The position numbers and the translations under genes were made by a program. The notes under the pieces are model-generated. The model had not been told where the DNA came from. It worked only from the letters and a program-made list of their open reading frames with translations, and searched no databases. Of a stretch of DNA of 43,356 nucleotides, positions 1 to 29,900 are shown piece by piece. This stretch comes from a virus. The stretch is from positions 1 through 43,356 of the IMG/VR virus record IMGVR_UViG_3300045996_004607; one strand, 5' to 3'. Positions within the stretch are counted from its first letter, which is position 1; the number at the start of each line of letters is the position of its first letter.

Positions 1-1227
1 TCAGCTGTGGGCGGCCGGTACGGATTCGGTACGACTCAGGTCCAGCGCCGCGTCCAGCAGCCCCCGCGTGCTGTCGCGCTCGTCGCCCGGCCAGTACCCC
101 AGGTACGTCTCCAGCGTGACCGACGGTGATGCGTGACCGCAGGCCATCTGCACCGTCTTCACATTCTTCCCGCCGTAGATCAACGCTGTCGCGAAGTAGT
201 GCCGCATCGACCGCAGAGTCAGCAGATCCGCTGGGATCTTCGCTTCCTCACACGCCGCTCGCCACACCTTGGACCAATCGGTCCGCCGAAACGGCTTGTT
301 TGTCGGGCCAGGGAACAAGAGGTGCGCAGTACGCCACCTCGGTTTGTGCGGGTTGGTCTTGTCGAGAACCTCGCAGGGTTTCGGCGGAAACTCGGCGATG
401 TGCCGCGACAGCATTTCCTGAACCAGTGTCGGCAACTCGGTAGTACGGTACGAGGTCTCGGTCTTTGGGGGCGCGAGAAAGGGAGCCCCCTTCGAGAGCT
501 CCGCAAGTTGGTGCGACACGCGGGCTTCCCGTCTGAGGAAGTCGACGCCGTCCAGCTCCAGGCCCATGATCTCCCCGGAGCGCCATCCGCAGCCGGCCGC
601 GAGGTACACCGCTGCCCTGTAGCGCCTGGGCACCGCGGCCGCGAGCGCGTGCACCTGGTCGACCGTGGGCAGGTCGTAGATCCCCTTCGGCAGTGGCGGC
701 AGCGCGACACCCCTGCAGGGCGACTCCCCGATGATCCTGTCGAGCACGGCCTGGGCGAACAAGGGGTGCACGGCGGCCGTGTAGATCTTGTGGATGGTCG
801 ACGGCGCGAGGGGCTTGTCCAGCGTCAGACACCTCTGCACCCATCGCTTGATCGTCCCGGACCGCACCGCGGACATCGCCATCCCACCGAACACCGGCGC
901 CACGTGGAGACGGTGCGCGCGCTCCACTTCCTCCTTTGAGGACTCGCGCAGGAGCAGGCCGGCTCGGAAGAGCACGGCGTACTCGTTGACGGTGATGCGG
1001 CCGCTGGCGGGGTCGAGGTACGCGCCGCGTCCGATCTGCGCGCGGATCTCCGCGTCGAACGCCTCAGCCGGAGCCTTCTTCGCGAACGCCTCGGTCCGGA
1101 CGCGGCCGGTGTCGGGATCGTCCCACGACACACGCCACCGCTTCCCGCGTCCGTGTCGCGAAGAGGGGACAGGCTTGCCGGTGACGGGGTCCCGGTCCTT
1201 GCGGTACCAGAGGTCCTGTACTGCCAC
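1..1227 (-). CDS. int: Tyrosine recombinase (integrase) of AICE/actinophage type
   Basis: A 408-residue phage-type integrase that should catalyse site-specific integration and, with an excisionase, excision of the element. The catalytic set is visible: Arg216 in CGWRSGEIMG, Arg342 and His343 in LRSMRHYFA, His365 in GHAS, and the nucleophile Tyr375 in TLETYLGYW. The usual first His of the HxxR box is Arg339, a variant I recall from actinobacterial element integrases. The N-terminal 60 residues are basic and look like an arm-binding domain; residues 70-170 fit the SAM-like core-binding domain. The start is GTG at 1227 with AGGAG seven bases upstream. The stop codon is the first base triplet of the window, so an att site beyond int would lie outside. 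It lies 32 bp downstream of the 1260-1568 gene and is probably cotranscribed with it. Family assignment is secure; the target is unknown. Confidence 0.95.
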   Translation of the reverse strand: MAVQDLWYRKDRDPVTGKPVPSSRHGRGKRWRVSWDDPDTGRVRTEAFAKKAPAEAFDAEIRAQIGRGAYLDPASGRITVNEYAVLFRAGLLLRESSKEEVERAHRLHVAPVFGGMAMSAVRSGTIKRWVQRCLTLDKPLAPSTIHKIYTAAVHPLFAQAVLDRIIGESPCRGVALPPLPKGIYDLPTVDQVHALAAAVPRRYRAAVYLAAGCGWRSGEIMGLELDGVDFLRREARVSHQLAELSKGAPFLAPPKTETSYRTTELPTLVQEMLSRHIAEFPPKPCEVLDKTNPHKPRWRTAHLLFPGPTNKPFRRTDWSKVWRAACEEAKIPADLLTLRSMRHYFATALIYGGKNVKTVQMACGHASPSVTLETYLGYWPGDERDSTRGLLDAALDLSRTESVPAAHS

Positions 1228-4872: not shown

Positions 4873-5471
4873 AGGAGCACATCGTCCAAGGGCTGCCCCA
4901 GGAACTGGTGGACCGCGTCCTGGAGCGCGCCACCAGGCTCAGCACGATCGAGCCCCTGCTCGTCGGCGGCCGCGGGATCGGCCGTGCGGAGTGGCGCGGC
5001 AGCGCGACCACCTTCGTAGTTGAACCGGTCCAGCCCGGCGACACCACCGTTCGGATCGGCGTGGTCAACGCCAACGTCGCCTACGTGGCGGCCCAGCTGC
5101 AGGCGCAGCAGCTCCGCGAACTGGCGGTCGCTCTGCTCGTGCGCGCCGACTTCGTCGACACCGCGAGCACGGCCGCCGTCCGCGTGGTCGACGCCGACCC
5201 GCCCCGCGAGGGCCTGGTGTCTGCGGTCACCGCGACCCTCGGCGCCCTGGCCGAGGACACCGGCCCCGACGACGTGGCGCCCGACGAGATCCTGGTCCAC
5301 GAGTACGTGATCCACCTGCGCGACACGGGTCGCCTGGGCTACCTCGCCGCTTCGGACGAGTGGAGCGACGGTGCCATGCCCTTGCCGGCTGTGCTCCAAG
5401 ACGCCGCGCACGACCTGTGGCGAAACGGGCAGACCGGCAACGGCGACCTGACGCCCGAGGACCCCTCCTGA
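4869..5471 (+). CDS. Protein of unknown function
   Basis: A 200-residue acidic protein from GTG 4869, overlapping the previous stop (GTGA). It opens with KEHIVQGLPQELVDRVLERA, a helix that could be a dimerisation element, then alternates strands and helices. The C-terminal end includes a DDVAPDEILVHEYVIHLRDT segment. No known domain recognised. It is the last gene before a perfect 16-bp hairpin, so it closes the operon that begins with the Cro-like gene. Confidence 0.65.
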   Translation: MKEHIVQGLPQELVDRVLERATRLSTIEPLLVGGRGIGRAEWRGSATTFVVEPVQPGDTTVRIGVVNANVAYVAAQLQAQQLRELAVALLVRADFVDTASTAAVRVVDADPPREGLVSAVTATLGALAEDTGPDDVAPDEILVHEYVIHLRDTGRLGYLAASDEWSDGAMPLPAVLQDAAHDLWRNGQTGNGDLTPEDPS

Positions 5472-5472
5472 T

Positions 5473-5513
5473 GGTGGTGTGCGCGGCGCGCTTCCTCCGC
5501 CGCGCACACCACC
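5473..5513 (+). terminator. Hairpin terminator or attenuator before the rep-like gene
   Basis: GGTGGTGTGCGCGGCG (5473-5488) pairs perfectly over 16 bp with 5498-5513 around a 9-nt loop. No T run follows, as is common for high-GC actinobacterial terminators. It lies between the unknown-function operon and the rep-like gene. Confidence 0.6.
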
Positions 5514-5547
5514 GCACTGCCGTCTCTCACAGTTCAAGGAGGTCGCC

Positions 5548-6381
5548 GTGGACACCACGCACAACCCCCCGCCCACGGGCGACCAGCCAGACCTGATCCC
5601 CACCGGCCGCTTCGAGTGGGAACGCGTCGTGGCCAGGATCGAGATGCCCAAGCCGGTGAAGCTCGTCGCGCTGCTGATGGCGATGACCGCCGACCCGGAC
5701 GGGTCACGCGTCCGTCCCGGACAAGCGCTGCTGGCGGCCGAAACCGGCGACTCCGAGCGCAACGTCGCGCGCATCCAGAAGGTGTTGCGACAGAAATTCG
5801 GCCTGCTGGAACTGGTCTCCCGCGGTGGCGGTCGGGGCGGCACCGGCAAGACCGCGGAGTACCAGCTGACGATCCCCACCGATCTGCTGGAGCGCGCGAC
5901 GCTGATCGGTCCCCACGGACCGCTCGTGACACGGGGGAAGCAGCTCCACATCCCCGTATCACCGGACATCCAGACGTCACCTGAAACCAGCACCGCCGGT
6001 GTGGACAACAACGATCGACCGGACATCCAGACGTCATCCCGATCTTCTGTAGACGACTCGATTGACCGGACATCCAACGGTGCTCCGGAGGGATTGACCG
6101 GACATCCAGACCTCATTGACCGGACACCTGGATGTCCGACTACCAATGACCAACCACCTAACTACTCACCAACCCCTGGTCCTGACCCAGCGGAACCACC
6201 GGACGCGCACGGGGACGCGAACGCCGTGAACGACATCCCTGAGCCGAAGAAGTGCGCATCCCACGGTCTGGCGGCAGGACGCCGGGCGGACGGCCTGCCC
6301 AAGTGCGCGCTGTGCCGCCGCCAACTTCGTGGCGGCGGCGGCCGAGTCATCCAGCTCCGCGCCATCCCGTCGGCGCTGTAG
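5548..6381 (+). CDS. Winged-helix protein, candidate replication initiator
   Basis: About 277 residues from GTG 5548, preceded by AAGGAGG at 6-bp spacing. The N-terminal 110 residues hold a winged-helix domain of the kind in actinobacterial plasmid Rep and HTH proteins: VKLVALLMAMTADPDGSRVR, then LLAAETGDSERNVARIQKVL and FGLLELVSRG. A long disordered linker follows. It ends in a possible zinc knuckle with CASHGLAAGRRADGLPKCAL, in which Cys-x-x-His and Cys-x-x-Cys pairs are visible. The linker DNA carries iteron-like repeats in different reading frames, as expected if the origin lies inside its own initiator gene. It matches none of the usual AICE initiators (RepSA, RepAM, RepPP) in motifs I can see. 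A transcription regulator is the main alternative. Confidence 0.65.
   Translation: MDTTHNPPPTGDQPDLIPTGRFEWERVVARIEMPKPVKLVALLMAMTADPDGSRVRPGQALLAAETGDSERNVARIQKVLRQKFGLLELVSRGGGRGGTGKTAEYQLTIPTDLLERATLIGPHGPLVTRGKQLHIPVSPDIQTSPETSTAGVDNNDRPDIQTSSRSSVDDSIDRTSNGAPEGLTGHPDLIDRTPGCPTTNDQPPNYSPTPGPDPAEPPDAHGDANAVNDIPEPKKCASHGLAAGRRADGLPKCALCRRQLRGGGGRVIQLRAIPSAL
5961..6138. repeat. Iteron-like repeats, candidate replication origin
   Basis: The motif ACCGGACATCCAGACGTCA occurs exactly at 5961-5979 and 6018-6036, with one mismatch at 6097-6115, and as the 12-bp core ACCGGACATCCA at 6065-6076. An inverted core TGGATGTCCG lies at 6129-6138, next to a degenerate direct copy beginning at 6119. The copies fall in three different codon phases of the gene, so their conservation is at the DNA level. 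Several carry an ATTG prefix. Such clusters are the usual binding sites of plasmid initiators. Confidence 0.7.
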
Positions 6382-6518
6382 ACCGCCAAACCGGCTGAGA
6401 GCGCCGCTACGCCTCCAGCACCACCAGGTTGGGGGAGCGAGTCCATCCCGGCCCGCATAGATCGACTCCGGGGCAATCAGGCCCCGCCAGACCCACATCA
6501 CCCGAAGGGGATGCACAA

Positions 6519-6776
6519 GTGCGTGGACAGGAACTGCTCAACACCGTCATCGCCGCCATCCAGCAGCACTTCGACGACGACGTCGCGGACGCCATCCAGA
6601 GCGACCCCGACACGGTCGAGCGGATGGCCCGGCACCTCAACCATCTCGCCGGTGGCGACCCGGCCGGCATGAGCCGCGCGTTGGAGAACGTCGCCGGCCA
6701 GCTCGACGACGCCACCGCCGAGTGGCTCGTCACCCAGGCCGACAACCCGGCCGCCTACGTGTTCTCGAAGCTCTGA
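6519..6776 (+). CDS. Small acidic protein, paralogue of the next gene
   Basis: An 85-residue acidic helical protein from GTG 6519 with GAAGGGG at 8-bp spacing. Its second half (RALENVAGQLDDATAEWLV) resembles AHIQRAAGQLDHETAFRLA of the next gene, so the two look like a tandem duplication. No family recognised. The 137-bp gap upstream contains only a weak hairpin (CGGGGC 6469-6474 with GCCCCG 6481-6486). Position between rep and spd suggests an accessory role in maintenance or transfer. Confidence 0.6.
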   Translation: MRGQELLNTVIAAIQQHFDDDVADAIQSDPDTVERMARHLNHLAGGDPAGMSRALENVAGQLDDATAEWLVTQADNPAAYVFSKL

Positions 6777-6816: not shown

Positions 6817-7095
6817 GTGCACGCCAACGACCTGATCGACTGGCACGTCGCCGGCATGGCCGACGTCGTCGAGGAACTCTTCGACGACGCCGTCGCCGAG
6901 GAACTGATCCGCGACGAGGAGCGCTTCCGGGACCTGGTCGTGCAGCTCGGTCTCCGCTGCGACGCCGACCAGGACCTCATGGCCGCGCACATCCAGCGGG
7001 CCGCCGGCCAGCTCGACCACGAGACCGCGTTCCGGCTGGCCTACGACGAGGACGCCGACGCCATCGGCTGGCTGAACGACCACCTGCACGTCTGA
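6817..7095 (+). CDS. Small acidic protein, paralogue of the previous gene
   Basis: A 92-residue protein from GTG 6817 with GGAGGAG upstream. It is strongly acidic (VEELFDDAVAEELIRDEERF) and helical, and shares the AGQLD-x-x-TA core with its neighbour at the same relative place. Acidic small proteins of this sort can be DNA mimics or partners of basic proteins, and two strongly basic proteins follow directly; this is speculation. A hairpin follows the stop. Confidence 0.6.
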   Translation: MHANDLIDWHVAGMADVVEELFDDAVAEELIRDEERFRDLVVQLGLRCDADQDLMAAHIQRAAGQLDHETAFRLAYDEDADAIGWLNDHLHV

Positions 7096-7172: not shown

Positions 7173-8564
7173 ATGTCTACCACCGTGAACAGCGATGATC
7201 CACGCCCCACGCCCAGCGAGCGGGCGCAGTTGCAACTCGCCAAGGCGCAGGCCGACGTCCTGCGACGCGAAGCGGAGACCGCGCAGCGTGCGGCCGACAC
7301 CGCACGCGCCGCCCAGCGCCGCCGCGACCGCGAGCAGCTGCGCGCGGATCGCCGCGCCGCCCGCACCGAGCGCGCCGCACAGCGTCGTGATGAACGAGAG
7401 CAGCGCCGCGCGACCCGCTCCGCGGAGCGCACCGCTCGCCGCGCTACCCGGCGCGCCACGCTGACCGGCTTCGTACGCCGGGCCGCAGCGAACGCCGGCG
7501 ACCGCATCTACCTCGTGCCGCTGGCAGCGGCGACGTGCGGCGCCTGGTGGTACCAGGTTGAGGCGATGAAGGGTGCCGGCATCAACGCACCGGTCACCTA
7601 CGTCGTCGCCACCGCGTTGGAAGCGATGGGCCTCGCCCTGGGCCGGCTCTCGCAGAAGGCGCGCGCCGCAGACGACTCGCCGACGGTCTACCGCCTGGCG
7701 ATGTGGGCGGTCGTCGGCGTCGCGTCCGCGGTGAACTACCGCCACGGCAGCACCGACTGGAACGAGCCCGGCCTGACCGGCGTGGTGTTCGCCGTGCTGT
7801 CGATCGCCTCGGTGGGCGGCTGGGAACTCCGCGAGCGCCAGGCTCACCGCGCCCGGATCGCCGACCGGCTGCCCGCCAGCCGTCCGGCGTTCGGAGTGGC
7901 CCGCTGGCTGCGCTACCCGATGAGCACCGCAGCCGCCTGGTCTGTGGCGGTCCGCGACGGCCTCACCGACGCCGCCCAGGCGCTCGCCACCGCGCGCGCC
8001 GAGCGCGCCAGCCGCCGTGTCGGCCGCACGTTCCGGCGCGCGGACCGCAAGCTCGTCGCCGCCCGCATCGACGCGGCGGACCGCACCCGACTCACCGAGG
8101 CTCAGCGGGTCCTGAACGAGGCCGCGGCCATCGTCGACTCCTACGCCCTGCTGCTCGGACCGGACGCCCTGGTCTCGGAACCCGCGCCGGCGCCGCGCAA
8201 GGTGCGATCCGTCCGCGTCCGGGTGCCCGCCGACATCGTTCAGCAGTCGCTGATGACGTCCGGCCCGACGACGTCGTCCGGACGTCCGGACGCCCAGATC
8301 GCCAGCGTGCCGGACGTCACCGCAGCCGAGCCGCCCGCCGCGCCGCCCGTGCCAGCAGCACGACCGACGTCTGCCTTGACCACCGCACGGAAGTCCGGCA
8401 AGAAGTCCGTGTCGGACGAGGACATCCGGAACGAGATCGTCCGGCTGCAGCACGCTAACGGCGGCCAGCTGCCCTCGCCGTACCGTCTCAGGCAGGCCCT
8501 GGGCATCTCCCACGAGCGCGCCACCGAGCGCCTGGAGCACGCCCGGACCGAGGCAACGACGTGA
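7173..8564 (+). CDS. DUF2637/SpdB-like membrane protein
   Basis: A 463-residue protein. Residues 15-95 form a very basic Arg/Ala-rich coiled coil. Four hydrophobic segments follow at about 109-127, 136-155, 172-190 and 203-222, including MWAVVGVASAVNYRHG and LTGVVFAVLSIASVGGWELR, typical of DUF2637 proteins. These are found in Streptomyces plasmids and AICEs as Spd (intramycelial spread) proteins that act with TraB at the membrane. The C-terminal 60 residues contain a small helical domain (IRNEIVRLQHANGGQLPSPY then RLRQALGISHERATERLE) that looks like an HTH. Position upstream of traB supports a role in plasmid spreading. The gene overlaps the next by ATGA-type coupling (4 bp). Confidence 0.8.
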   Translation: MSTTVNSDDPRPTPSERAQLQLAKAQADVLRREAETAQRAADTARAAQRRRDREQLRADRRAARTERAAQRRDEREQRRATRSAERTARRATRRATLTGFVRRAAANAGDRIYLVPLAAATCGAWWYQVEAMKGAGINAPVTYVVATALEAMGLALGRLSQKARAADDSPTVYRLAMWAVVGVASAVNYRHGSTDWNEPGLTGVVFAVLSIASVGGWELRERQAHRARIADRLPASRPAFGVARWLRYPMSTAAAWSVAVRDGLTDAAQALATARAERASRRVGRTFRRADRKLVAARIDAADRTRLTEAQRVLNEAAAIVDSYALLLGPDALVSEPAPAPRKVRSVRVRVPADIVQQSLMTSGPTTSSGRPDAQIASVPDVTAAEPPAAPPVPAARPTSALTTARKSGKKSVSDEDIRNEIVRLQHANGGQLPSPYRLRQALGISHERATERLEHARTEATT

Positions 8565-9276: not shown

Positions 9277-10234
9277 AACCACGCCGCGCGGCACCAAGCC
9301 CGCGACTCGAAGCGGCGGCGGCAGTGCTGGCACGCGCTCGTCCGGCTCGACCGGTCGCTCCACGAAGTCAACCGGTCACGCGTCCGGCTCGTCCGGCTCG
9401 ACGGGCCGTGCGTCCGGCGCGTCCGGGCGGGCCCGCTCCGGACCGGCCCGGACGTCCACCTACACCACCGCCCGTGACCCGCTGCCCTCCAGCGCGCGAG
9501 CGAAGGAACGGGACGCCGCAGACCGCGCATCGGACGACGACCAGGACGACGATCCCCGTCCCGGCCTCCTCGCCCGCGCTCGCTACCGCATCTCGGACGC
9601 CGTGCAGTCCGCAGAGCAGCGCCTGGGCGAGTCCTACGGCGACGGGCACGCCGTGCGCGCCCTGGGCGAGGCGCTCGTGCAGCCGCTGCGAAAGCCCGAC
9701 CCGCACCCCGACTTCGAGGTCGGAATCCCCGGCCCGGCGATGGTCTACCCCAACGTCGATCTGGACGAGCCCCCTGCGGCCCCGCCGCAGGTCCCCCCGG
9801 TGTGGAACGAGGAGTACGAGGTCGCCGTGCCGCGCAAGTGGCCCGACCGCGACCCCGATCCCGCACCGCAACCACCAACACCAGGAGAAACCACCATGAG
9901 CAACGACACCGTCACGAGCATCATCGACGCCGACAGCGTCGCCCAGTACGCCGATCACCTCGGTGACCTGTCCACGCCCGAGAGCCGTGGTCAGTGCTAC
10001 GAAGCTGCCGCGAACGCTGCCCGCCTGGACGCGCAGCGGTCGGAGGAAATCGCGCGGCAGCTGCGCCGCTCCGCCGCGGTGCTGGAGGCCATGAAGGGCC
10101 CGAAGCCCAAGGCCCAGGCCGCCGAGCAGCTCGAAGAGGCTCGCCGGGCATCCGTCGACGCGGTCAACCGGCTCGACGTCGCCGCCGGCTTCTCCCGCAT
10201 GGCCGAGGAAGCGCGCGCAGAACTGTCGTCCTGA
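8561..10234 (+). CDS. Low-complexity basic membrane protein, transfer-associated
   Basis: A 557-residue protein coupled by a 4-bp overlap to the Spd-like gene. Residues 48-92 hold two adjacent hydrophobic segments (AVVRIAVPLVVIALVLAALF, then VVAVVLGALAAVVAVGWAA). Residues 95-305 are extreme low complexity in Ser, Gly, Arg and Thr (repeated SSG units, strongly basic). An acidic region follows, then a helical C-terminal domain. An in-frame ATG at 9896 with AGGAG seven bases upstream could start a separate 112-residue protein (SNDTVTSIIDADSVAQYADH and a helical rest). The basic tract could bind DNA near the transfer pore; this is inference. No named family is evident. Confidence 0.7.
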   Translation: MTAPQVAPSMKPRSAPASPSSSPAAPSATADPAVPAPPPLPQFTTAGIPVKTAVVRIAVPLVVIALVLAALFVPPVVAVVLGALAAVVAVGWAAHRVTRGRRNRPRGSSVTSRSGGFSGLRGGRKPGGRSLGKFLPTGTGRSRGANGRWTSGPGGSRKSSGTKSSGARSSGTGGRWPWSRGKRTSAGRSGTSSAFGSTGTARKTGGRTATTSTGRSTAPRTPSSGRPGGRTPATSRTSGTTPRGTKPATRSGGGSAGTRSSGSTGRSTKSTGHASGSSGSTGRASGASGRARSGPARTSTYTTARDPLPSSARAKERDAADRASDDDQDDDPRPGLLARARYRISDAVQSAEQRLGESYGDGHAVRALGEALVQPLRKPDPHPDFEVGIPGPAMVYPNVDLDEPPAAPPQVPPVWNEEYEVAVPRKWPDRDPDPAPQPPTPGETTMSNDTVTSIIDADSVAQYADHLGDLSTPESRGQCYEAAANAARLDAQRSEEIARQLRRSAAVLEAMKGPKPKAQAAEQLEEARRASVDAVNRLDVAAGFSRMAEEARAELSS

Positions 10235-10241
10235 CCAGCAC

Positions 10242-10276
10242 GGACCGGGAGCCGCGCCCACCGCGGCTCCCGGTCC
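10242..10276 (+). terminator. Strong hairpin between transfer genes
   Basis: A perfect 15-bp stem (10242-10256 with 10262-10276) closes a 5-nt loop, without a T run. It ends 10 bp before the Shine-Dalgarno box of traB. It could be a terminator limiting traB expression or an RNA element controlling its translation. Confidence 0.6.
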
Positions 10277-10296
10277 GCCCCTTCGCGGAGGTACCG

Positions 10297-12399
10297 ATGC
10301 CCCACTCCGACACCGAGACCATCTCCACCAAGGCGTTCACCATCATCGTCGGCACCGTGACCAGCTTGATCCTCACGATCGTGTGGGCCCTGTTCGTCCA
10401 CCTCGCCGACGTGCCGATGCTTGTGCCCTACGCGGTCACCTGCGCGATGACCGTGTTCGTGCAGCGCCGGGCCCGGCGCATCCTCCTTGGTGGCGCGACG
10501 TTCGGCCAGATCCCCTACAGCGCTCGCGAGAAGACGCTGCGGTGGATCACCGCAGCGATCCTCTCCCACGCCGTGCTCGTGCTGCTCGCGACGATCCGCG
10601 TCGACCTGTGGTGGGCCTGGCTGCTCACCCTGATCGCGCTGGCCGGAATCGAGTACGTCATCGCCCGCGATCAGGAGTACCTGCTCACGCGGATCGCCCC
10701 GCCCATTGCTCCACCCGCCATCGTGCGCACCGAGCCGATCGACGTGGTGACCCGACCGGTCGAGCCGACTCGATCCCGCGGCGAGCAGCTGGTCCTCGAC
10801 GCCCTCGCCCGGACCACCTACGTGCACACCCAGATCGCCGGCGAGGTGAAAGAGCTGGAATACGGCGTCACCTGCGCTCTGCGCAACCCCAGCATCGCGG
10901 CTGCGTCGGAAGCTGCCGGCGTCCCGGTGACGAAGGTCGAGCCGCTCGGACCCGGTGCGGAGGTAGACATCGCCGTGGCCGTCAGCGAGGTCCTGGGCAA
11001 ACCGATCGAGCGGAGCTGGGTCGAGATCGCCGACTCCCGCTACGCGGGACTGGTGAGCATGACCATCACGCTCAAGGACGTGCTGTCGATGGCTCACCCG
11101 TACCCGCTGATCGTCGAGCCCGCGAAACCCGGCAGCCGCATCACGCTGGGCGTCCGCGTGAACGGTCAGCACGCCACCATCAACCCGCTGCAGCACGTCG
11201 TCATCGTTGGCAAGTCCAGGTCGGGCAAGACCTCGCTGGTCAACAGCTACCTCGCAGGGCTGGGACGACTGCGCGGCCAGAAGCGGCTCTGCGGCCGCGA
11301 GAAAATCTACGACATCGCAGGTCAGTGGCTGGACTGTCACCTCGACACCGACAACGTCCTGCCCATCGACCAGGTCGCAGAAGGCCAGGACGACACCCTC
11401 GTGATGCTGCGCGACCTCATGGACGAGGCGCGTGCCCGCCAAGCCCTGCCGCACGCCGAGCGCTCCGGCCTGGACCCCATCTGGTGCATCCTGGAGGAGG
11501 CGCCGGCCGCCCTCGCCGACCACACCCGGCGCATCGAGTGGGACGGCCGGACGTGGACCTGTTCCGACGCCGTGGCGCACCTGCTGCGCACCGCCGGGTC
11601 CGCCGGCATCCATCTCGTGCTGCTGGCCCAGCAGTACACCAACGCCATGTTCGGAGACCAGGCCAGCGCGATCAAGGCCAACATCGGCGCGATCCTGATC
11701 GTGCAGAGCACCTCGGGAGACGAGCGCAGCGAGGCCTTCGGCGCGGGCGCGGCGAAGCTGCCGAACCTCTGGAACCCCGGCCAGGTCTACATCCAGGACG
11801 GCGGACCGGTCTGGTCGTTCAAGGCCTGGTACATCCACGAGGTCGACTCCCGCATGCAGCGCCTGCACGACGGCCCGACGATCGTCGACGTCTCGATGGC
11901 CCGCTCCCGCATCGCCTCGCACCTCAACCAGGGCCGCATGATCACCACCGGCAGCAAGCAGTGGCGCGAGCGACCAGTACGCATGACCACCGAGTACCAC
12001 CTGTACCTGCGAGGTAAGAGCCGCGAACTGCCCGCCGCACCGAAGCGGACGCAGTTGTCGGTCGACGACGCACTGGCCGCCCTCGTCGCGTCCAAGATGG
12101 CCGAACAAGGCATCACGCCGACGTCCGCAGCGCCCGAGCAACCCGCCACCGAAACCGACGAACCGACCCCCACCGCCGTGCCGGTCAAGCGCTCGCGCAC
12201 CGCACAGATCGTGACCATCGTCGAGCAGGCCACGGCACCGATCAGCCGCGGCGACATCCGTGCCGCGCTCCAGGCCGACGGCGACGACGTCAGCGTCGGC
12301 GTCCTCGACAACACCCTCAGCAAGCTCGTCGCGGCCAACCGCCTACGCCGCGCCGACACCGGCCTCTATGAGCTCTCCACCGCACTCCAGGGCACGTGA
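10297..12399 (+). CDS. traB: TraB-like FtsK/SpoIIIE-family DNA translocase
   Basis: About 700 residues from ATG 10297 with GGAGGT just upstream. The N-terminus has four hydrophobic segments within the first 125 residues (for example TIIVGTVTSLILTIVWALFV). The ATPase domain shows Walker A GKSRSGKT at 305-312 and a Walker B-like WCILEEAP near residue 395. The LLAQQYT segment and the following GAILIVQ strand fit the FtsK/HerA core. The last 70 residues (QIVTIVEQATAPISRGDIRA and a wing with LRRADTGLYEL) form a winged helix like the FtsK gamma or TraB DNA-recognition domain. TraB proteins move double-stranded plasmid DNA between mycelial cells by recognising 8-bp clt repeats. A repeat cluster of that kind lies directly downstream. 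Assignment to the translocase family is secure. Confidence 0.92.
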   Translation: MPHSDTETISTKAFTIIVGTVTSLILTIVWALFVHLADVPMLVPYAVTCAMTVFVQRRARRILLGGATFGQIPYSAREKTLRWITAAILSHAVLVLLATIRVDLWWAWLLTLIALAGIEYVIARDQEYLLTRIAPPIAPPAIVRTEPIDVVTRPVEPTRSRGEQLVLDALARTTYVHTQIAGEVKELEYGVTCALRNPSIAAASEAAGVPVTKVEPLGPGAEVDIAVAVSEVLGKPIERSWVEIADSRYAGLVSMTITLKDVLSMAHPYPLIVEPAKPGSRITLGVRVNGQHATINPLQHVVIVGKSRSGKTSLVNSYLAGLGRLRGQKRLCGREKIYDIAGQWLDCHLDTDNVLPIDQVAEGQDDTLVMLRDLMDEARARQALPHAERSGLDPIWCILEEAPAALADHTRRIEWDGRTWTCSDAVAHLLRTAGSAGIHLVLLAQQYTNAMFGDQASAIKANIGAILIVQSTSGDERSEAFGAGAAKLPNLWNPGQVYIQDGGPVWSFKAWYIHEVDSRMQRLHDGPTIVDVSMARSRIASHLNQGRMITTGSKQWRERPVRMTTEYHLYLRGKSRELPAAPKRTQLSVDDALAALVASKMAEQGITPTSAAPEQPATETDEPTPTAVPVKRSRTAQIVTIVEQATAPISRGDIRAALQADGDDVSVGVLDNTLSKLVAANRLRRADTGLYELSTALQGT

Positions 12400-14554: not shown

Positions 14555-15673
14555 GTGCTGAACCTGCGCCAGATCCGCATCGACCTGCGGCACCCGATCA
14601 CCGACGCCGGCGCGACCGGCAGCGTGACCTGGTACCGCCAGCCCGCACTGCGCACCGACGCGCCACCGGTGCTCTACGGCGCGCCGCCGATCGTCGTGCA
14701 GCTGGCGGGAGCGCCGGTCGTCGCGCAGGTCCCGCCGACCGACGACCCCGCAGTCGAGCCGACCGGCTGGAACTACCTCGTCGTCATCGACACCGACGTG
14801 CTCGTCGACCGCTACCTCGTCGAGGTGCCGACCGGCGGCGGGACCGTCGTCGAGTTCCGCGACCTGCTGCCCGCCACCGCCGCCACCGGCGGATCCACCG
14901 CGTACGCCTCCCTCGTGCAGCACCTGGCGCTCGCCGAGCGCGTCGAGGTGCTCGAAGGAGCCGACCCGCCCGACGGGTCCGGCGGCACCGGCGGCGTGCA
15001 GAGCATCGCCGCGACCGACGCCACGATCGTCATCACCGGCGCTCCGACCACGCCGTCGCTGCGAGTCGGCACCGTCGCGATCAGCTCCGTGACCGGCCTG
15101 ACCGGGCAGCTCGGCGACCTGGCCGCCGACGTCGCCAGCCTCACCGACCAGGTCGCCGCGCTGCCCGACCTCGACGCCCTGGCCGAGCAGGTCGCCAGCC
15201 TCACCGCCCAGATGGCCGCGACGCAGCCGCGGATCACCCGCACCTCTGCCCGCGTCACCGACGGCATCGGCCTGGGCAACCCGCTGCCGACCACCGGCGC
15301 GACGTGGCAGCAGTACGCCGGCGTCGGCCAGCTGGTGATCGCGGCCGCGCCCGGCGACGTGCTCGAGCTCGCCGGCGCGTGGATGACGCTCGCCGAGTCC
15401 GACACGTTCTACGACGTCGCCGCGATCGTCGACGACGCGCCGGTGTGGTGGGGATCCAGCGGTGCCGCCACCCCCGCGGTCGAGGGCGACCCGGCGCTGT
15501 ACCCGGGACTGCGGCCGGTGGGGTTCTACGTCGAGATGCCCGTCGACGAGCAGCACCTCGACGGCGGCCTGGTCCACCTCGCGCTGATGGTCCGCACCAT
15601 CAACAGCAACGGGAAGCTGTTCCACTCGGCGACGTTCCCGTTCCGCTGGCGCGTGATCAACCTGGGAGGGTGA
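14555..15673 (+). CDS. Putative minor tail / tail-fibre protein
   Basis: A 372-residue protein from GTG 14555 with GGAGG upstream. The N-terminal 110 residues (GSVTWYRQPALRT, YLVVIDTDVLVDRYLVEVPT, and a FRDLLPA end) match the N-terminal domain of actinophage tail-tip proteins. Residues 150-230 form a short heptad coiled coil (LGDLAADVASLTDQVAALPD), typical of trimeric fibres. The C-terminal 130 residues are a beta-rich domain (VLELAGAWMTLAESDTFYDV and RTINSNGKLFHSATF), likely receptor-binding. Its place before the terminase, far from the other tail genes, is unusual. Confidence 0.65.
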   Translation: MLNLRQIRIDLRHPITDAGATGSVTWYRQPALRTDAPPVLYGAPPIVVQLAGAPVVAQVPPTDDPAVEPTGWNYLVVIDTDVLVDRYLVEVPTGGGTVVEFRDLLPATAATGGSTAYASLVQHLALAERVEVLEGADPPDGSGGTGGVQSIAATDATIVITGAPTTPSLRVGTVAISSVTGLTGQLGDLAADVASLTDQVAALPDLDALAEQVASLTAQMAATQPRITRTSARVTDGIGLGNPLPTTGATWQQYAGVGQLVIAAAPGDVLELAGAWMTLAESDTFYDVAAIVDDAPVWWGSSGAATPAVEGDPALYPGLRPVGFYVEMPVDEQHLDGGLVHLALMVRTINSNGKLFHSATFPFRWRVINLGG

Positions 15674-16692: not shown

Positions 16693-16830
16693 ACCCGGCA
16701 GGCCTGTGACCTGCGGAAACGCATCCGCAGGGCTCTGACCTGCAAAAATGTCGACCCCCCCTCTTCCTGACCCCCATCGCCGCTAGTCATTTCTCTCCCC
16801 GCGGCTGAAATGGTGGGTGCGAAAGGCCAG

Positions 16831-17322
16831 GTGAGCGCCGTGGACGACATCGACGACGAGTTCGACGACGACGAGTTCGACGACGACGACCTGGGCGGCT
16901 ACCCGGCTCCCGCAGGCCTGCGGGAGCGCGGCACGCAGCTGTGGCAGGACCTGGGCGGTGCGATCGAGCCGGACGCTGGGAACCGGCTGCTCATCGCTGA
17001 GGCAGCACGCATATCCGACCGACTCGAGCAGCTCGACCGCATCCTGTGCGGCGACACCGACCTGTGGCTCGAGGTGCAGCTGCCGCGCAGGGCCGCAGAC
17101 GACGAAGTGCTCGTGCTGCGGGTCGACGCCGCGATGATGGAAGCCCGGCAGCAGCTCGGCGTGCTGCGCCAGGTGCTGCTGCAACTCGCTCGCACCCGCG
17201 ACGCCGACCGCGCGGCCGGCGGCAGGGCGCGCACCGGATCCGGAGCACCTACGGGGGGTGGCGTCCTTGACGAGATCGCTGCCCAGCGGGCTGCGCGGCA
17301 AGCAGCAGCCCAGATTTCTTAG
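16831..17322 (+). CDS. terS: Terminase small subunit
   Basis: About 163 residues; GTG 16831, ATG 16810 and GTG 16840 are all possible starts. The N-terminus is a run of Asp, Glu and Phe. The core GLRERGTQLWQDLGGAIEPD followed by LLIAEAARISDRLEQLDRIL is the pattern of actinophage small terminases. A long helix (EARQQLGVLRQVLLQLAR) fits the oligomerisation region. It would select phage DNA for packaging with TerL, whose gene it overlaps by 65 bp. Confidence 0.82.
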   Translation: MSAVDDIDDEFDDDEFDDDDLGGYPAPAGLRERGTQLWQDLGGAIEPDAGNRLLIAEAARISDRLEQLDRILCGDTDLWLEVQLPRRAADDEVLVLRVDAAMMEARQQLGVLRQVLLQLARTRDADRAAGGRARTGSGAPTGGGVLDEIAAQRAARQAAAQIS

Positions 17323-18790
17323 CGCTCCCCCCGCGCCGACGTCGGCCGGCAAGGAGGCCATCGACCTGGCTCGTCAAGCCGGGCTCGACCTCGACCCGTG
17401 GCAGCAGCTCACGCTCACCACGGCGATGCAGGAGAACGCCGACGGAAAGTGGTCGGCGTTCGAGGTGGGCATTGTCGTCGCCCGGCAGAACGGCAAGGGG
17501 TCGATCATCGAGGCGCGCGAACTCGCCGGATTGTTCATCCTGCCCGAGAAGGTCATCGTTCACACCGCGCACACCTTCGAGACGAGCCTCGAGGCGTTCA
17601 CGCGGCTGTGCGCTCTGATCGAGGGAATGCCCGAGCTCGACCGGCAGGTGCGCCGTGTGTCGCAGGCACACGGCAAGGAGGGCATCCAGCTGCGCAACGG
17701 CAGCCGGATCAAGTTCAAGACCCGCACGCCGTCCGGTGGTCGTGGCCTGTCGGGTGACCTGGTCATCCTCGACGAGGCGATGATCCTGTCGGCGACCGCG
17801 ATGGGCACGCTGATGCCGCTCGTCTCGGCGCGGCCCAACCCGCAAATCTGGTACACCGGCAGCGCGGTCGACGCCGATGTGCACGTCGCCGGAACGGTTT
17901 TCTCCGGAATCCGCAATCGCGGCATCAAGGGCGGCGATCCGCGACTCGCCTATCTGGAGTGGTCGTGCGACAAGGACGTCGACCGCGACGATCCGCACGC
18001 CTGGGCGGAAGCGAACCCAGGAATGGGATATCGAATTTCCCCCGAGTACATCGCCGACGAGCGCAACTCCCTGCGGGCGCTGGGCCGCACGTGGGAAGTT
18101 GAGCGGCTGTCGATCGGCAACTGGCCCGACCCGGACCCGACGGCGGCCGACCGGGCGCTGCCGCTGGAGAAGTGGCGCACCCTGGTCGACCGGGCGCCGA
18201 AGCTGGGCAAGGGCGTGTGCATCGCGCTGGACATGACGCCGGACCGCACCTGGCTGACGATCGCCGCGGCGGCGCGACGTGCCGACGGCGGGGTGCAGGT
18301 CGAGGTCGGGTACCACGGCGATCCGTCGACGAGCCGGGTGCTGCGCATCGTGCTGTCGCTCCTCACGCGCTGGGATCCGGTCGCGGTGGTGATCGACAAG
18401 GCGTCGCCGGTCGCGGCGATGCTGCCTCATCTCGCCGACGCCGGCATCGAGGCGGAGACCACCGGCGCGGCCGAGCTGGCGCAGGCCGCGGGCGGCCTGT
18501 TCGACGCGGTGCGCGACGGCACCGTCTGGCACACCGGTGACCCGCTGCTCGAGGCCGCCGTCGAGGGCGCGGCGGAGCGGAAGTTGAGCGGCGCCTGGGC
18601 GTTCACGCGCATCGGCGATGCGGTGATCTCCCCGGTGGTGGCCGTGTCGCTGGCGCGGCTGGGCCTGTTGAAGTTCGGGGCGGCCGTCGCGCCGCCGCCG
18701 GCGACGCCGCAGCAGGAAGAGCTGTCGTCGAGCTCGTGGAGCTCGTCGGCCGGTCGGGACGCTGCCGACCTGCTGACCACCGCATTCTGA
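17258..18790 (+). CDS. terL: Terminase large subunit
   Basis: A 510-residue packaging ATPase/nuclease from GTG 17258, overlapping the end of terS. The ATPase half has a Walker A-like VARQNGKGS (76-82) with the Arg-first form seen in many actinophage terminases, and Walker B LVILDEAM (Asp173, Glu174). The nuclease half begins with CIALDMTPDRTW, whose Asp is expected to bind metal, and continues with VAVVIDKASP. The C-terminal 40 residues are Ser-rich and end in DAADLLTTAF. Length and domain order are typical. It is the best marker of the virion module. Confidence 0.95.
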   Translation: MASLTRSLPSGLRGKQQPRFLSAPPAPTSAGKEAIDLARQAGLDLDPWQQLTLTTAMQENADGKWSAFEVGIVVARQNGKGSIIEARELAGLFILPEKVIVHTAHTFETSLEAFTRLCALIEGMPELDRQVRRVSQAHGKEGIQLRNGSRIKFKTRTPSGGRGLSGDLVILDEAMILSATAMGTLMPLVSARPNPQIWYTGSAVDADVHVAGTVFSGIRNRGIKGGDPRLAYLEWSCDKDVDRDDPHAWAEANPGMGYRISPEYIADERNSLRALGRTWEVERLSIGNWPDPDPTAADRALPLEKWRTLVDRAPKLGKGVCIALDMTPDRTWLTIAAAARRADGGVQVEVGYHGDPSTSRVLRIVLSLLTRWDPVAVVIDKASPVAAMLPHLADAGIEAETTGAAELAQAAGGLFDAVRDGTVWHTGDPLLEAAVEGAAERKLSGAWAFTRIGDAVISPVVAVSLARLGLLKFGAAVAPPPATPQQEELSSSSWSSSAGRDAADLLTTAF

Positions 18791-26984: not shown

Positions 26985-29900
26985 GTGGCATCACGTACGA
27001 ACGCGTCCGCCGTCTGGGTCGACGTCATCCCGTCGATGGCTGGATTCGGCGCCGAGCTGGGCAAGGCCGCGGCCGGCGCGGGCACCAGCACCGGCAAGGC
27101 CGTCGGCGTCGAGCTCGAGCGCGCCGCCGAGCGGGCGGGCAAGGAAGCCGGCGCGCGCCTGGGTGGCGGGCTGGCCGCCGCCCAGGCGCAGGTCGACCAG
27201 CTGGCCGCAGCCCTACAGGCCGCCCGGAACAAGGAGCAGGACGCCGCCGGCCGGGTCCGCATCGCCGAAGCGAAGCTGCAAGAGGTCCGCGACAGCGGCA
27301 AGGCGACCGGGTCGCAGCTCGCCGCGGCTGAGGAGCGTCTGGCCGCCGCCCGGCGCGCCGCCGGCACCGCCGCGGACAACGTCACCCGCTCCACCAAGGC
27401 GCTCGAGCAGGCGCAGCAGCGGGCAGCCACCGCGACCGACGAGGTCGACCAGGCCACCGGCCGCAGCGGCGGCAGCATGGACGGCTACGGCACCAAGCTC
27501 GGCGGCGCGGCCAAGGCCGCCGCCGGGTTCGCGCTGGCGATGGCCGGTGTGCAGGGCGGCCTGTCGCTGGTCACCGACGCCCTGGCCGCCAGCGACGTCG
27601 ACGCCGCGATGTCGGCCAAGTTGGGCGCTACGCCGCAGATGGCCGCGGAGTTCGGGCAGATCGCCGGCAACCTCTACGCCCAGAACTACGGCGACAGCCT
27701 GGGCGCGGTGTCCGACGCCCTGGCCGCCGTCACCCGCTCCGGGGCGGTCATGGAGGACGCCACCGCCGAGCAGCTCGAACGCATCACCGGGCGCGCGCTG
27801 AACCTCGAGCGCGTGTTCGGGGTGCAGGTCGCGGAGAGCATGCGGGCGGTCGGCGTCATGATGCGCACCGGCATGGCGCCCGACGCCGAAACCGCGCTGG
27901 ACATCGTCACCCGCGGGATGCAGCAGGGCGTCAACGTCGCTGACGACTTCCTCGACACGATCAGCGAGTACTCGACGCAGTTCCGCAAGTTGGGCCTCGA
28001 CGGGGTGAGCGCGACGGGCCTGCTGTCGCAGGGACTCAGGGCTGGCGCGCGCGACGCCGACGTCGTCGCCGACACGCTCAAGGAGTTCAGCATCCGGGCG
28101 CTGGACGGGAGCAAGACCACCATCGCCGGGTTCGAGGCGCTGGGCCTGAACGCGGAGGAGATGGCCGCCCGAATCGGCGCCGGTGGCGCGTCGGCGTCGG
28201 AGGGCCTGGCGCTCGTGCTCGACCGGCTGCGCGGCATCACCGACCCCGTGGACCAGGCGCAGGCCGCGGTCGGCCTGTTCGGCACCAAGGCCGAGGATCT
28301 GGGTGCGGCGTTGTTCGCGCTCGACCCGCGCACCGCTGCCGGGGCGCTGGGGGAGGTGACCGGCGCCGCCGAGCGGATGGGGGAGACCCTGGCTGGCACG
28401 CCGTCGCAGGCGCTGGCGGCGTTCGGGCGGGAGGCGCAGACCTGGCTGGTCGACCTGCTCGGCGGTCACGTGGTCCCGATCCTGGTCGACGTCGTCGGGT
28501 GGCTGCGCGACAGCGTCGTGCCCGCCCTGGCCGCGACCGGCGCGTGGTTCCAGCGCAACCAGGAGTGGCTGGTCCCGCTCGTGATCACCCTGGGCACGTT
28601 CGCCGCGGTGTACCGGGCGATCACCATCGCCACCGAGCTGTGGGCCGCCCGCACCGCGATCATGACGGCGGCGCAGTGGGCGCTCAACGCAGCCCAGGCC
28701 GCCAACCCCGTCGGGCTGGTGATCGCCGCGATCGTCGCCCTGGTCGCCGGGTTCGTGTACCTCTGGAACACCTCGGAGGGCTTCCGCGGGTTCTGGATCG
28801 GCCTGTGGGCGGGGATCCAGCAGGCAGCGCTGTGGGCGTGGACGACGGTGCTGCAACCCACCTGGAACGCGATCGTCGTCGGCCTGCGGTGGATCGGCGA
28901 CGCCGCGGTGTGGCTGTGGCAGTCCGCGATCGTGCCGGCGTTCTCGTTCATCTCCGAGGCCGTCCGGATCGCCGCCGCGGTGATCACGACCGTGCTCGTC
29001 GCGCCCGTGATGATCGCGATCAACCTGCTGGGCGCGGTGATCGGCTGGCTGTGGTCGACCGTCGTGCAGCCGGTGTTCGCCGCCATCGGCGCGATCGCCA
29101 CCTGGCTGTGGCAAACGATCTTCGTGCCGGTGATCGACGGCATCGTCGCCTACGTGCAGCTGTGGGCCGGCATCCTCACCTGGCTGTGGGACACCGTCGC
29201 CATGCCGGTGTTCGGCCTGATCGGGTCCGCGGTGTCCGCGGTGGCCAGCGCGTTCGCCTGGGCCTGGGGGGCGGTGATCCAGCCGGCGTGGTCGGCCCTG
29301 GGCGCGTTCCTGGGCTGGCTGTGGTCAGCCGTCGTGCTGCCCGTGTTCGACGCGCTGCGCGCCGGCGTCGACGCGGTCGGCGCGGTGTTCTCCTGGGTGT
29401 GGAACAGCGTGATCCAGCCGGCGTGGTCGGCCCTGGGCGCTGGCGTCGGCTGGGTGTGGGACAACGTCGTCCGGCCCGCGTTCGACGCGATCAAGGGGGG
29501 CGTCGACGCCGTCGGACGCGCGATCTCCGACGCCGTCGACTGGATCGGCCGCGTCTGGGACAGCATGAAGTCCAAGCTCGAGGGCCCGGTCAACTTCATG
29601 ATCAACGCCGTCTACAACGACGGCGTGCGGGCCGTGTGGAACAAGGTCGCCGGGTTCCTGTCGATCGCCGAGCTGCCGCGCGTGGACCCGATCCGGTTCG
29701 CGCACGGCGGCGTGCTGCCCGGCTACGCGCCGGGCGTCGACTCGATCCCGGTGCTGGCCTCTCCCGGTGAGGGCTGGCTCGTGCCCGAAGCGGTCCGCGG
29801 CCTGGGCGCCGGGTTCGTGGGCTGGGCGAACCGGTTCTTCTCGCGCGGCCGGTCCAGCGGCGGCCAGGGCACCGGCGGCCAGGGGTTCGCGCACGGCGGG

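Follow-up and report, generated by a model that had tools for sequence, protein, structure and literature searches.

Why should a rep-like gene carry, within its coding sequence, a repeated DNA unit that is read in three different phases? The gene in question lies in a 43,356-base virus record, which was analysed over its whole length and is referred to below as the window. The record represents a tailed temperate phage of a GC-rich host, which appears to be an actinobacterium. Profile matches place the genes for the portal, the head protease and the tape measure 3' of the terminase gene. The answer developed here, which we regard as very likely, is that 5548-6381 encodes the phage replication initiator and that the DNA coding for its linker forms an intragenic iteron origin of the lambda O type. 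The features on which the argument draws are collected in Table 1.

Table 1. Position, strand and basis of the features discussed in the text
Feature	Position	Strand	Basis
Tyrosine integrase	1-1227		Scan of ten window proteins
Rep-like gene, 277 aa	5548-6381	+	Open reading frame; GTG start at 5548 chosen from sequence
Winged-helix (wHTH) DNA-binding domain, residues 15-116	5590-5895	+	AF2 pLDDT ~75-92 over most of the domain
Predicted disordered linker, residues 117-230, holding the iteron array	5896-6237	+	AF2 pLDDT mostly <50
Iteron 1, ACCGGACATCCAGACGTCA exact	5961-5979	+	Sequence
DnaA box TTGTCCACA, between iterons 1 and 2	6000-6008	-	Only perfect TTRTCCACA in the window
Iteron 2, identical to iteron 1	6018-6036	+	Sequence
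Iteron 3, left 12 nt exact (core), right half degenerate	6065-6083	+	Sequence
Iteron 4, one mismatch relative to iteron 1	6097-6115	+	Sequence
Iteron 5, dyad CGGACA-CCTGGA-TGTCCG at 6121-6138	6119-6138	+	Sequence
Candidate AT-rich unwinding element, 3' of the last iteron	6133-6172	+	53% AT against 29% AT for the genome
C-terminal Cys/His-rich domain (CASHG...CALCRR), zinc-ribbon-like, residues about 231-262	6238-6333	+	AF2 pLDDT ~80
Terminase	16810-18790		Profile matches

According to its sequence and an AF2 model, the protein consists of the wHTH domain, the disordered linker and a small Cys/His-rich domain, the Cys/His positions of which are common to two homologues, L013 and L023. The mean pLDDT of the model is 63.9, and only its domains are therefore usable. 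Among the viral Foldseek matches of the model are a 'replication initiator protein' and, from Escherichia phage Min27, a 'putative replication protein O' (E 3.8e-5), while fold and sequence searches of the PDB returned generic winged-helix matches only, with the initiators 4pt7 and 5kbj among the weak ones. PHROG matches of the window protein are weak (replication initiation, E 0.0015; O-like, E 0.0047); its homologues match the O-like PHROGs better (5e-6 to 7e-8), and homologous wHTH proteins match many PHROGs named replication initiation, O-like or DnaD-like. HTH_36 is weakly detected in all eight aligned homologues, together with several replication-initiation PHROGs. Used as a query, the full protein retrieved no relatives from phage records, viral contigs or genome contigs.

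The original prediction described the repeats as two exact copies and one near-exact copy of the unit, accompanied by a core copy and an inverted core copy, and all of these are indeed found. It had missed the DnaA box as well as a fifth direct half-copy, ACCGGACA at 6119, which makes up the left side of iteron 5, the right side being the inverted core CTGGATGTCCG (6128-6138). The dyad of iteron 5 is symmetric at 14 of 18 positions; in iterons 1-4 the right half is degenerate, and the copies in L023 and L013 are clear inverted repeats. Successive iterons are spaced by 57, 47, 32 and 22 bp, and relative to the GTG at 5548 they fall in phases 2, 2, 1, 0 and 1. All three phases are thus present, as predicted, with copies 1 and 2 sharing one because 57 nt equal 19 codons. 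No 12-mer of the 43-kb window other than ACCGGACATCCA occurs in four exact non-overlapping copies within 300 nt, and CCGGACATCC is found nowhere else in the window. A looser score (10-mer, one mismatch) reaches at least five copies in 14 of 431 scanning windows along the phage (~3%), and the stricter 12-mer test was therefore used for the window alone.

Relatives of the domain were recovered with a two-sequence domain alignment and then with an eight-row profile run on whole genomes. They are found in a Micromonospora phage-like plasmid, M. abscessus prophages, phage IdentityCrisis, 10.9-kb Mycolicibacterium phages, a Mesorhizobium phage, a viral contig and two Nocardia genomes (L008 to L015, in this order), and each carries an array of four to six copies directly after the domain, with a unit sequence of its own. 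The profile search of ~790 actinobacterial genomes yielded ~35 further loci. Arrays were called throughout the family by one scoring rule, requiring at least five copies in 300 nt, with matched upstream and downstream controls. Just 3' of the wHTH domain, an array is present in 11 of 11 loci scoring at least 100 bits, in 21 of 25 scoring at least 55 bits and in 33 of 48 overall; the other 15, mostly weaker matches, have fewer than five copies. Control regions contained arrays in 0 of 48 cases upstream and in 1 of 46 cases 500 nt further downstream (downstream versus upstream arrays, Fisher P ~4e-14, with loci that are not all phylogenetically independent). Close homologues, in which an absence of repeats was to count against the original prediction, thus do carry them: all of the strongest matches have an array, and L023 has the same unit and spacings. 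The expectation that related elements would show the same repeats was borne out for the place of the array but not for the unit sequence, which is usually different.

The array is also accompanied by other origin-like elements. In the window, the candidate unwinding element ranks among the top 0.3% of 40-mers of the record in AT content. In 33 homologues, the 40-65 nt that follow the array show a peak in AT content of ~12-13 points. Of the 48 homologues examined, 13 have exact DnaA boxes close to where the array lies. In a separate observation, the ORFs of L008, L017, L018 and L022 end just past the winged helix, the array being mostly non-coding, and TTATCCACA boxes lie in or flank it. These data bear on the possibility that the array serves as an operator and has no part in replication as an origin. 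In that case the winged-helix protein would be a transcription regulator and, by binding within its own gene, would block or control the early operon. Winged-helix proteins of the GntR, MarR or Crp type are detectable by the profile, and plasmid initiators often autoregulate too. However, in all strong homologues the array is situated mid-gene and 3' of the domain, AT-rich DNA follows it, DnaA boxes often lie within it, and the specific PHROG matches are to replication initiators. Moreover, a scan of 5300-6600, by consensus only, detected no promoter-like site. An operator is therefore an unlikely explanation. Upstream of rep, immediately after the preceding stop codon, a perfect 16-bp inverted repeat (GGTGGTGTGCGCGGCG) with a 9-nt loop occupies 5473-5513 and is possibly a terminator or attenuator, though it has no T-run.

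A second alternative would seek the cause of the repetition in the protein, as repeated peptides in a low-complexity tail, or in mutation, as a by-product of local duplication. It could call on copies 1 and 2, which both encode PDIQTS in their shared phase, and on L036, in which six copies all use one phase. Against it stand the three phases of the window and the use of more than one phase in 28 of the 29 loci that have three or more copies in frame. In four short-ORF homologues (L016, L017, L018 and L022), the array even lies mostly beyond the stop codon and is non-coding. Furthermore, 1,000 protein-preserving shuffles never attained the observed array, the best of them reaching a maximum of four copies as against five. 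Multiple phases and copies beyond a stop codon argue for a constraint on the DNA, and the prediction that selection acts at this level is upheld; the peptide or duplication reading, already disfavoured, is scarcely credible.

If the repeats are binding sites for the encoded protein, how do the two vary together? Similarity between repeat units is 0.87 for pairs with more than 70% domain identity and 0.30-0.36 for pairs below 50%, and it rises with wHTH identity (Mantel P 0.003), although the Spearman correlation is weak at 0.15. In 27 of the 33 arrays the last spacing measures 21-24 bp, and spacings also peak near 33 and 45 bp. That the repeat sequence follows the wHTH protein also speaks to the proposal that the array is a partition site (a parS-like centromere) or an incompatibility site bound by another protein. 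In some extrachromosomal mycobacteriophage prophages, direct repeats near rep do act as parS (PMC7157519), and an FtsK-like gene is located downstream in the window. Nevertheless, no par gene was noticed among the window proteins scanned, and since the window encodes a tyrosine integrase the prophage is probably integrated. We consider a partition or incompatibility site very improbable and retain the reading of the array as an origin.

The closest homologue with the repeat unit of the window, L023, comes from a genome belonging to the order that also contains Nocardia and encodes a protein 47.5% identical to that of the window. It carries ACCGGACATC at spacings of 48, 57, 47, 32 and 22 bp, the last four of which equal those of the window, and as in the window the DnaA box is offset by 39 nt from the preceding iteron. 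Its first copies are full dyads of the form CGGACATC-CA-GATGTCCG. When 32 other window proteins were tested, the 55 kb surrounding L023 gave no match to any of them, which suggests that the gene and its array move together. A second, frame-broken rep homologue (L064, near 15128-15307; G114:C1 about 8565128) is situated at the extreme end of the L023 contig.

The genes around rep were also surveyed. A DUF2637 membrane protein (7173-8564) and an FtsK/SpoIIIE-like protein (10231-12399) are encoded between rep and the terminase gene, both of them gene types usual in actinomycete conjugative elements. From these neighbours, the RepAM of AICEs was a first candidate and was dropped; no Pfam match to RepAM (DUF3631) or Prim-Pol was obtained on the ten proteins scanned, rep included. 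AICE replication modules comprise RepAM (DUF3631), RepSA or a Prim-Pol domain (PMC3218068), of which RepSA has no Pfam model and hence falls outside the Pfam scan as such. No lambda P-like loader was recognised beside rep: the two reading frames at 6519-6776 and 6817-7095 have no PHROG family match at E 0.001, though either could still be an unrecognised loader. Queries with the terminase or the FtsK-like protein found no related viral contigs. Elsewhere in the window, a 135-bp unit is repeated ~2.3 times at 29180-29520 within the tape-measure gene, which also strongly matches an endolysin family.

We infer that the encoded protein binds the repeats, that melting starts on their AT-rich side, and that helicase loading and replication take place at this site. 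The initiator would occupy all five iterons, probably as dimers on dyads of 18-20 bp of which the left half, CGGACA, is best kept; dimer binding is assumed here, given that the right halves of the first four iterons are poorly preserved. Host DnaA would occupy its box between the first two iterons and may help in the process. Once filled, the array would bend the DNA and open the AT-rich stretch immediately 3' of iteron 5, at which the host helicase would be loaded. A probable replication origin of this phage is thereby located to ~200 bp. Applied to dozens of prophages of actinobacteria, those of Mycobacterium abscessus and Nocardia among them, the same rule indicates where their origins would lie.

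On a broader scale, we lean, though only slightly, towards a large and largely unannotated family of initiators in actinobacterial prophages and plasmids, with the origin inside or just past their own gene. Their iteron sequence would change rapidly with the winged helix under a shared ruler of wide steps (~57, 45 and 33 bp), a final 22-bp step and AT-rich DNA beyond it, a DnaA box being a frequent addition. If so, genomes could be read directly both for origins and for the specificity codes of initiators. Iterons that change under a family-wide spacing rule are the more interesting part, more so than the single new origin. Since the sequence of the array varies while its position and spacing are constant, the homologues provide natural initiator-iteron pairs for testing how winged helices choose their sites; they are also candidate small replicons for vectors in GC-rich hosts. 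No account of this origin family in actinophages emerged from a search of the open-access literature.

Among known systems, the PHROGs annotated as 'replication initiation protein' or 'O-like' (phrog_270, 345, 391 and 1032) are matched over the wHTH domain by the window protein and its homologues, although the match of the window protein itself is weak (E 0.0015-0.005). In Streptomyces, the rep1 origin of plasmid pSLA2 is of a 'phage-like' kind. The plasmids pFP1, pFP11 and pWTY27 have rep-iteron loci (PMC3583192) and resemble the window in that an actinobacterial Rep binds iterons at a theta-type origin there, whereas the iteron of pWTY27 was mapped as a separate fragment, at 338-606 bp on the plasmid. 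Like the window protein, RepA of the extrachromosomal mycobacteriophages has an HTH domain and belongs to the replication proteins of actinobacterial phages. The study of these phages dealt with prophage maintenance, found no repeated motifs in the region examined around repA and suggested an origin within or next to repA, as in lambda (PMC7157519). The window differs from them in having clear repeats and an integrase.

The nearest parallel is with lambda, phi80 and the Stx lambdoid phages, in which, as proposed for the window, the origin lies within the initiator gene and 3' of the DNA-binding domain and comprises four to six iterons, ~20-24 bp apart, and then A+T-rich DNA. Their iterons have dyad symmetry, which in the window is clear for iteron 5. 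In lambda, O dimers bind four inverted repeats of ~19 bp in the middle of the O gene, and the 40-bp A+T-rich tract that follows these repeats opens (PMC5043065, PMC7466680). The lambda iterons are spaced by 20, 24 and 23 bp, whereas copies 1-4 of the window are more spread out and the last step alone is of this size. The window also differs in its unrelated unit sequence, in the DnaA box inside the array and in the Cys/His-rich C-terminus. Of the features that define the lambda type, the adjacent helicase-loader gene (P, DnaC/DnaI type) was not recognised; with weak sequence similarity in addition, the protein is not classed as a lambdoid O by descent. The N-terminal winged helix, the several intragenic iterons 3' of it and the adjoining A+T-rich tract are all present, and by analogy with this plan the proposed origin of the window most likely works like ori-lambda.
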